A model generated the notes under the pieces. The model was not told where the DNA came from, did no database searches, and saw nothing but the letters and a program-made list of their open reading frames with translations. A stretch of DNA of 64,000 bases, from positions 1,650,416 to 1,714,415 of the forward strand of contig OY811976.1 of assembly GCA_963681505.1 (NCBI GenBank). Reading direction: 5' to 3'. Shown in pieces: positions 8,377 through 16,803 of the stretch (within the stretch, counting starts at the first letter, position 1; each line of letters opens with the position of its first letter). Both the position numbers and the translations under genes were made by a program. Source of the stretch: Eunapius fragilis. Its lineage: Eukaryota; Porifera; Demospongiae; Spongillida; Spongillidae.

Positions 8377-11300
8377 CTACAGGATAATCTGGTTCTTGAA
8401 GTTAGCAGTAAGATCTTTGTGAGGCAGGACTATGGAGTTGAGGACCATCAGCTCAGGATGCACGTTCACACCTTCTCCTGTTTGGAGACGAGCAAAGGTG
8501 AGAACATATATGGGATGAGGATATTGAAGGTGGAGGAGTATGACACTGTATCACTAACACAACACAAGGGCAACTTGTTTCCTTGAACACATAGTGTTGT
8601 GAAGAGTTATGGCAACATTAACTCACACACATACAGTGAAAATAGGACTGCTCGATCCCTCCTCCCCAGCCCTTGCCATATTGCCTCCCCACAAGCCTTA
8701 CCCATGTTCCCAGTCATACGTACAATATTAAACAGGTGAATATTTTAATGCAAAACTGTTAACAATATAAAGGATACTTGTTCATACAGCCTCCTATCCT
8801 ACATGAGTGCCATTGAGGGCTGCTCTCTCCTCCCCAGCCCTTACCACATTGCCTCCACACAAGTCTGAACAGTCCCCAGCCCTTACAATGCTGTTTTTGT
8901 CAAGCATTTGTATGGAGTCATGTTTATCATCTTCCCTATACCAGTCCCCAGCTCCTTCTTCACACTAATCTCATCCCCAGTCCTTACCTATGACGGTAAT
9001 GCTGGGGTTCAGCCTGCCGTCATCATTAAAAAGTGATTCAGTTGATAGGTGAGCAAGAGGATCGTTGGGATTGAGGTTGCTAGGGTAACCCTCAATCCTT
9101 GACCACGCCCCCAATATGCAGTCCCACCCGATGATGCTGTGAAGAATACAGCTGTGATTCTGTAAGGTGTGGTGGTGGGGTGGGGAGTGTTGAATGAGGA
9201 GTAGGGAGTGATAGGTAGGGGAGTGGGGAGTGATGGAGTGGTGGTGGGAGTGTATGAAGAGAATAGAGAAGACAAGAGAGGATAAGACGAGGGGAGGAGT
9301 GTCGATGCTGACAGAACAAAGGCAAGGTGTGAGAACCCTCATTGCTCCTGGCAGAGATAGCGTGCACACTAGCACTATTAAAGCTCTCTTGTACGAACAC
9401 CATTAAACCACACTCACACACACACACACACACACCACCAAGCCACTTGTAGTGCTAACATCATCAAAACTTGATGTGTGCACACATAGTGTGTGTACGT
9501 GGTGGCCTGGGGACTCTCCCCAATCTTACGTGGGTGTGCGTAGTGGTCTGGAGACTCTCCCTGATCTCTAATGGGTGTGCGTCACCCTGATCTCTAGTGG
9601 GTGTGCGTGATGGTCTGGGGACTCACCCTGATCTCTGCTCTATCTAAAATGATGGCTTCCTTCACTCGGGCACCAGCTCGAATCACAACGTTCATCCCTA
9701 CGTACACATTGGGACCAAGCTGGTGTCATGGCGTGTTTAGGTGACGTGAGTGGTAGTGCAATATGTAGGGAGGAAGGAAAGGGTTAACCACGTACCAAAG
9801 GGACAATAGAAACATACCACATACACCACACACCATGAGACATACACACAACACACCATGAGACATACACACCACACACCATGAGACATACACACCACAC
9901 ACCATGAGACATACACACCACACACCATGAGACATACACACCACACACCATGAGACATACACACCACACACCATGAGACATACTCACCACAGCAGAGGGA
10001 TGGATCTGGGCAGAGGGGTGGATCCTCACATCACCTATGATCTTGGGGCCTCCAGGTGTGTTGCTGGCTAGGAGCTCAGGATGAAGGGTACGATATTGGG
10101 AGAGATATAGGTTGTTTGCATACAGAGCCGACCTGGAGAAGAGGGGGGGAGGGTGGGCGGTGGGAGTGAATTGAGAATACAGGAGAATACAAGAATATAC
10201 ATTCTCTTGGTGCCACGTATGGCTGAAACCATGATGATCACCATAACAACATATTGAGATATTGAGAGCGCAACAAAAACATATTGATATTCCTCTCCCC
10301 CCCCCCCCTCCCCCTTTGAATGCATATCCACAGACATCTGCCTTTTTTTTGACCATGCACTAAAAATCGTTCTGATTATACTGTGTTTTATCATGAAGTG
10401 ACATTACGTATCCTAAAACTAATCACCACCGTGCAAAATATATTTATAAAAGACTGAAAAGACGTCAAAAGCCTTGCCAAATTGGACTGCCACACCCACC
10501 ATGATACCACACCCACTGACAACATTGATAGTTATAACAATGGTGGTTCCGACATGTTTAAGTAGTCTTATTATAATGTTGCATAGTCACAGCAACTACA
10601 TACATTTCAATCCAACCAACTAGTATGGAGCAAGGACTATATGGATACCAGTAGATCCATATACATGTATCGGAAGTTTCGTTAGAAACTTCCATATAGG
10701 ATTTGACCCCGACTATGAAGTCATTAAAAAAACGCGACCCGTCTGTAACAACACTCCCGACGATCGGATCGTGTAGCTTGTTTTAGCAATCGATCTAGAA
10801 GTCAAAAATGAGTAGTTTCGTTCTTGTTTCATGTCGCTGAACCGCGTGGTTGTTGAGAACAAGAGTGTACTGCCCGTCCTCGTACCCAGTCTCGGAACAA
10901 GGGGCGGGTCGTCTTCTTATTCTCCTTCTCCTCCTTCTTGGCAACGCATAACTCAGGACAGGAACATTTCTAAGCGATGAAAATTTCACCAATAGCTTCA
11001 GAATCGGATGGAGGACTCGCTTTTATATAATATAATACTTTGATAAACAATCGACTATCAGCCTCCTATGTCTTGTATAATTTAATTACGGTATCTAAAG
11101 ATGGGTATGAAAAAAATTAAGAAAACAAGTAAATAAAAACATTCTCTACGAGAAAGTTGGTGGGATATAGGATTTGATTATGACATTAGTGGTGTAAAAA
11201 GCAAGGAAACAAGGTCTTATCAGAAGGGAAAATGTCATAGTCCTATATTTAGCACATTTGTAGGGCATGTGTTGTTTGTGTGCTAAATATAGGACTATGA

Positions 11301-16803: not shown

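Follow-up and report, generated by a model that had tools for sequence, protein, structure and literature searches.

The window analysed here is a 64,000-nucleotide stretch of the genome of the freshwater sponge Eunapius fragilis (contig OY811976.1, positions 1,650,416 to 1,714,415; assembly of 219 Mb in 24 contigs), and our subject is a set of tandem arrays at the splice junctions of one of its housekeeping genes, GMPPA. This gene occupies the minus strand with 11 coding exons, its frame is open throughout and its product has 417 amino acids. The sponge protein aligns over its full length with human GMPPA (7d72_A; E 1.2e-150, 505 bits) and shares 93% identity with an equally long protein of Ephydatia muelleri, the alignment of the two being free of gaps. 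Splice sites were placed from protein homology; when the ten junctions were compared with the human alignment, that of exons 6 and 7 alone fell near an alignment gap. The coding exons, supported by open frame and homology, are as follows.

16803-16767, minus strand, GMPPA coding exon 1
16707-16610, minus strand, GMPPA coding exon 2
16477-16377, minus strand, GMPPA coding exon 3
16118-15926, minus strand, GMPPA coding exon 4
15443-15384, minus strand, GMPPA coding exon 5
14455-14325, minus strand, GMPPA coding exon 6
12607-12485, minus strand, GMPPA coding exon 7
10132-9988, minus strand, GMPPA coding exon 8
9719-9627, minus strand, GMPPA coding exon 9
9159-8988, minus strand, GMPPA coding exon 10
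8477-8377, minus strand, GMPPA coding exon 11

Repeats at the junctions of this gene comprise five arrays, most of them reported by Tandem Repeats Finder (TRF), and one set of dispersed copies; here and below, a slash marks the exon-intron border.

9487-9636, minus strand, exon 9 donor array of 41/26-bp units, real donor 9627/9626
9823-9991, minus strand, exon 8 donor array (TRF, 23 bp x 7.3, 97%), real donor 9988/9987
14591-15386 by TRF (feature to 15387), minus strand, exon 5 donor array of 47-bp units, real donor 15384/15383
15819-15929, minus strand, exon 4 donor array (TRF, 38 bp x 3)
16102-16302, minus strand, exon 4 acceptor array, degenerate, 49-nt unit in 3 copies (96% and 61% identity)
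8676-8987, minus strand, intron 10 with scattered partial copies of its donor (exon 10, 8987); their first bases are 8886, 8844, 8701 and 8676

An earlier, sequence-only reading of this DNA had named four of these arrays, at the donors of exons 9, 8 and 5 and at the acceptor of exon 4. All four are present, three being recovered by TRF and the last by comparison of its 49-nt units, as TRF did not report the array at 16102-16302 even at score 30; the count itself was too low, the exon 4 donor array having been overlooked. That the arrays begin exactly at splice sites holds approximately: they abut or span the junctions, with homology extending at most 4 bases into the exon at the exon 5 and exon 8 donors, at most 10 at the exon 9 donor, and 17 bases into exon 4 at its acceptor. 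For the exon 9 array, TRF gives a span of 9487-9608, to which the unit holding the real donor adds up to about 9636. Among the dispersed copies of the exon 10 donor, three out of four keep GT. Altogether, a repeat edge lies no more than 5 bp from five of the ten GMPPA donors, where random placement within introns predicts 0.39; the contrast flatters the gene, which was chosen after the fact.

Other kinds of repeat were observed in GMPPA introns. Intron 4 contains a perfect AG x 114.5 microsatellite (15464-15692), which reads as a CT tract on the sense strand and ends 20 bases short of the acceptor of exon 5, and intron 7 contains a long inverted repeat (11187-11370) that was spotted by eye.

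The array copies carry decoy splice sites, whose donor scores were taken from a generic animal donor matrix. At exon 9, two of three decoys (9559 and 9518) read GAGAGT, while the third, at 9585, keeps GT (AGG/GTGACG); the six exon 8 decoys all have GT, read GTGTGT or weaker and score at most 6.8 compared with 9.6 for the real donor. To the weakened core previously ascribed to both arrays, the decoy at 9585 is an exception. Exon 5 decoys, said to keep GTGTGG, retain GT in 15 out of 16 cases, with a single decoy lacking it, and 10 equal the score of the real site. Both exon 4 donor decoys (15889 and 15851) are identical to the real GAG/GTAATA, and the exon 4 acceptor has decoys at 16220 and 16270. 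A premature stop is predicted to follow from use of any decoy that keeps GT at exon 5 (all 15) or at exon 9 (the only one), and likewise from use of either decoy at the donor or at the acceptor of exon 4. The same prediction applies to four of the six exon 8 decoys; the other two, the third and sixth (9918 and 9849), would instead give GMPPA 69 or 138 extra nt, in frame and stop-free.

Comparing copies with real donors in 15 arrays, we found that the decoy median falls short of the real donor in 12 and that in 7 at least one decoy scores as high as the real donor. The GT itself differs at a rate of 0.11, close to the average of 0.12 over positions +7 to +14; mismatch reaches 0.21 at +3 and 0.30 at +4, falls to 0.03 at +5 and 0 at +6, and ranges from 0.37 to 0.53 over exon bases -4 to -1. 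Decoys are therefore usually weaker mainly because exon-side bases are missing and because they differ at +3 and +4, the GT not being specially hit.

To place the GMPPA arrays in a wider context, we gathered 75 introns backed by homology, of which 23 lie in three genes of the window and 52 outside it (14 in chaperonin and 38 in myosin genes), amounting to 34,662 intron bases in 17 gene pieces from few gene families. A junction was accepted when it had a consistent GT-AG or GC-AG solution. For the myosins, 38 of 56 adjacent exon pairs were accepted and 18 dropped; for the chaperonins, 14 of 23 pairs were used, chosen by hand. One piece of locus L030 was out of frame; its two introns were counted, and the piece was excluded from coding training. 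Locus L034 was not used. Ab initio exon prediction over 200 kb of contig 1 yielded models that were largely mobile-element-like, none of which was counted; with the window genes left out of training in turn, the predictor called 12 of 26 exons exactly. A base was scored as repeated when it fell within a 20-mer having a copy with at most 3 mismatches at a distance of 7 to 1,500 bases, simple 20-mers of period 1-6 being excluded. By this definition, local non-simple repeats make up 28.6% of the 65,411 bases of the gene loci, compared with 0.3% in first-order Markov versions.

A process that starts arrays at splice junctions would give a peak of repeat coverage there. We looked for such a peak across the 75 introns and found none, donors lying at or below background and acceptors below it. 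Intron base +1 is repeated in 15 of the 75 introns, where the coverage of the same introns predicts 23.3 (8/23 against 6.4 expected within the window, 7/52 against 16.9 outside), and the last intron base before the acceptor in 5 (Fisher P 0.029 for donors versus acceptors). Along the intron, coverage averages 0.24 over the first ten bases, rises to about 0.5 at +50 and falls to 0.16 over the ten bases that precede acceptors; within exons it amounts to 0.10 in the ten bases ahead of donors and 0.03 in the ten past acceptors, and in exon interiors 1.7% of 7,416 bases are repeated (set of 37 introns). Over five settings and the 60 introns of at least 100 bp, the ratio of donor to interior coverage was 0.49-0.73, with gene-bootstrap upper limits of 1.03-1.15 that leave a ratio of 1 inside them, and the acceptor ratio was 0.15-0.52, with upper limits of 0.30-0.75. 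Likewise, in introns of at least 160 bp, copies are present for 128 of 234 donor-like motifs inside introns and for 15 of 53 real donors. With the coverage peak absent, the sequence-only proposal that mutation is biased toward expanding splice junctions is unsupported. The apparent enrichment at donors depends on the null: set against the coverage of their own introns, donors are at or below background, and set against repeats barred from crossing junctions, they are enriched.

These observations point to what are probably mirage-type minisatellites in repeat-rich sponge introns, a mirage being a minisatellite-like duplication of an intron-exon boundary, with duplication blind to the junctions and arrays halted at exons. 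Tandem duplication would act throughout introns without detectable preference for splice junctions. Where it reaches or crosses a junction, it would be tolerated because the exon-proximal splice site keeps its place, the surplus copies all falling on the intron side. Exons would purge repeats, acceptors less so, and donors would lose the fewest, so that arrays reaching an exon would stop there, each copy bearing a decoy site that in most cases would simply drift. Where a decoy AG precedes the true acceptor, a scanning spliceosome would encounter it first, which may be why acceptors lose more repeats than donors. The pile-up of array edges that we describe next and the missing coverage peak both agree with junction-blind duplication whose arrays end at exons.

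Several results weigh against this reading in its plain form. In 20 of the 75 introns the donor has a repeat edge no more than 5 bp away, compared with 3.6 under random placement inside introns; blind duplication accounts for this pile-up only if trimming or erosion is added. Counting the introns outside the window only, the figures are 11/52 and 2.8, and acceptors show 14/75 for the same 3.6 expected, so that in this sample array edges do lie nearer to splice sites than in shuffled controls, as the sequence-only reading had anticipated. Moreover, homology between the first 18 bases of a donor and their copies ends within 5 bases of the junction in 12 of 16 arrays, compared with 10% of 378 intron-interior points. 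Plain junction-blind duplication predicts many units reaching deep into the exon, and the sharp start at +1 exceeds that prediction. Donor-like motifs inside introns of at least 160 bp have a similarly short extension in 18 of 128 cases, compared with 12 of 15 real donors; because such a sharp edge is lacking at the motifs, the exon border, more than the motif, appears to cut the arrays. This motif control is weaker when taken per intron (mean short-extension fraction 0.30 over 24 introns), and, with control points and motifs clustering within the same arrays, P values come out too small and exact values were given no weight. Finally, no exon remnant was detectable in the copies of 10 testable arrays (10.2 vs 9.8, P 0.295; longer exon extensions fall outside this test), and an ungapped comparison of 12 arrays gave 0.231 vs 0.217 (P 0.28). 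An initial gapped signal of exon remnants (14.8 vs 10.2) proved to be an artefact, as the flank of near copies took in the exon itself, and was gone once this was excluded.

We infer little use of the decoys, trimming by purifying selection and the route by which arrays come to begin at +1; the sharp start could come from deletional fusion, from a breakpoint directed to the junction, from loss of exon-derived parts by erosion or from intron RNA being copied. Deletional fusion, a possible though less likely course, would have arrays grow within the intron until deletion of the unique stretch between exon and array made an array GT the donor, giving a start at +1 without exon sequence. The sharp border in 12 of 16 donor arrays (at most 5 exon bases), the lack of exon remnants in 10 arrays and the real donors of exons 4 and 5 being equaled by array decoys all favor it, but the exon 9 array, the exon 4 acceptor array and an array at donor 28882 of a second gene in the window hold 10, 17 and 28 exon bases, respectively, and are therefore true junction-spanning duplications. 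The same three arrays do not fit the idea that duplications were copied from excised intron RNA, whose 5' end is base +1, with reverse-transcribed ends patched into the intron of origin. Such copies would begin at GT, be free of exon sequence, lie in tandem or dispersed (compare exon 10) and leave donor-like motifs of the intron interior without such an edge. The majority of donor arrays conform to this, yet we give the idea only a slim chance. A mutational process that initiates duplication at donors, perhaps where transcription, chromatin or R-loop structure has a border, would explain the sharp start and the excess of donor edges within and outside the window. It is nevertheless unlikely, given the absence of a coverage peak, the parallel pile-up of acceptor edges and the rarity of copies at real donors relative to donor-like motifs.

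Selection on the decoys, either weakening them to shield the true site or keeping them for the tuning of splicing, was the other explanation offered by the sequence-only reading and is not clearly supported. The lower decoy median in 12 of 15 arrays and the mismatches at +3 and +4 leave it some room, as do the exon 8 decoys, which are all GTGTGT or weaker and include two whose use would extend the reading frame by 69 or 138 nt. The GT, however, differs no more than nearby positions, an equally strong decoy occurs in 7 of 15 arrays and the decoys of the exon 4 donor, exon 4 acceptor, exon 9 and exon 5 would mostly bring a premature stop; drift from a constrained original would look alike, so that selection is not demonstrated and we regard it as improbable. 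It is also very doubtful that the array-bearing introns are young introns born by tandem duplication of an exon segment (the Rogers model), their ends coinciding with the arrays from birth: the model has been put forward for mirages in PMC3087553 and, according to PMC4974935, is documented in a potato gene, but exon sequence is absent from the copies in the 10 arrays tested. Assembly errors, to which tandem arrays are prone, are hardly credible as a source, as array edges respect the reading frame of the 11 GMPPA exons and copies differ from one another, as they do in real arrays. Overall, we favor junction-blind duplication with arrays stopped at exons, a reading that the sharp start of arrays at base +1 of the intron still challenges.

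Elsewhere in the window, a second gene encodes an ankyrin-repeat protein and has its own junction array.

21958-29810, plus strand, ankyrin-repeat protein gene, 10 exons modelled, open frame of 784 amino acids
28849-29231, plus strand, higher-order array (25/90/115 bp) spanning the donor 28882/28883 of this gene

The relative P0121 is 64% identical to the encoded protein over the alignment, and two junctions lie near small alignment gaps. Within the array, which covers 28 exon bases, two decoys equal the real GAG/GTATGC and one is weaker. Inside a coding exon of the same gene, a 33-bp unit occurs twice (27344-27409), and about 18 surrounding residues are missing from P0121. A GC-AG intron is the best fit at 22064 (AAG/GCATGT), as it also is in the chaperonin gene L029 and the myosin gene L039. 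Pyrimidine-rich arrays (in gene sense) at 12616-12739, 22186-22274 and 26630-26812 stop just short of acceptors, one belonging to GMPPA exon 7 and the others to two exons of the second gene, as if standing in for polypyrimidine tracts. Very long arrays are found at 30402-33587 (21 bp x 151), 34118-35728 (22 bp x 73) and 18615-20424 (TATG x 452).

Among known systems, the closest kind is the 'mirages' of amphioxus, with human boundary repeats and intron gain by tandem duplication as relatives. In the passages of PMC3087553 and PMC3902484 that describe them, mirages of Adh, globin, troponin C and PGBD5 are minisatellite-like duplications of intron-exon boundaries at either intron end; AG or GT is kept in many, not all, units, those of Adh3 measure 10-72 bp, and splicing is reportedly undisturbed while length varies. 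The sponge arrays resemble this description: an array spans or abuts an intron-exon boundary in the five GMPPA arrays and the 28882 array, GT is kept in 15/16, 1/3 and 2/2 decoys at exon 5, exon 9 and the exon 4 donor, respectively, and unit sizes overlap. The differences lie in the host and in most sponge donor arrays holding at most 5 exon bases, units with exon as well as intron sequence being clear at exon 9, the exon 4 acceptor and 28882; splicing fidelity and length instability are features of the amphioxus cases, as there reported, and the sponge arrays are known from one haploid assembly. Human internal tandem repeats at exon-intron boundaries in segmental duplications, as described in PMC2812944, are likewise minisatellites, and they provide alternative splice sites; there they alter exons or create introns in recent paralogs, whereas the sponge arrays are known from genomic sequence. 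Intron gain in the potato RdRp gene, as outlined in PMC4974935, resembles the sponge arrays in being a tandem duplication that carries splice signals, but there the intron is new, whereas the sponge copies sit inside introns already present.

Among the titles and abstract openings searched, a set with most subscription journals outside its coverage, there was no report of mirage repeats in sponges, and the words 'minisatellite' and 'tandem repeat' do not occur in the main text of the E. muelleri genome paper (PMC7385117). The present sample gives an initial estimate of the local duplication that splice sites can bear, with donors at about two-thirds of the intron rate, acceptors at about one-third and exons at almost none (first setting). 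Together, these comparisons place mirage-type repeats in a sponge as well as in lancelets, which suggests that they may arise as a side effect of repeat-rich introns in general and need not be a peculiarity of lancelets.
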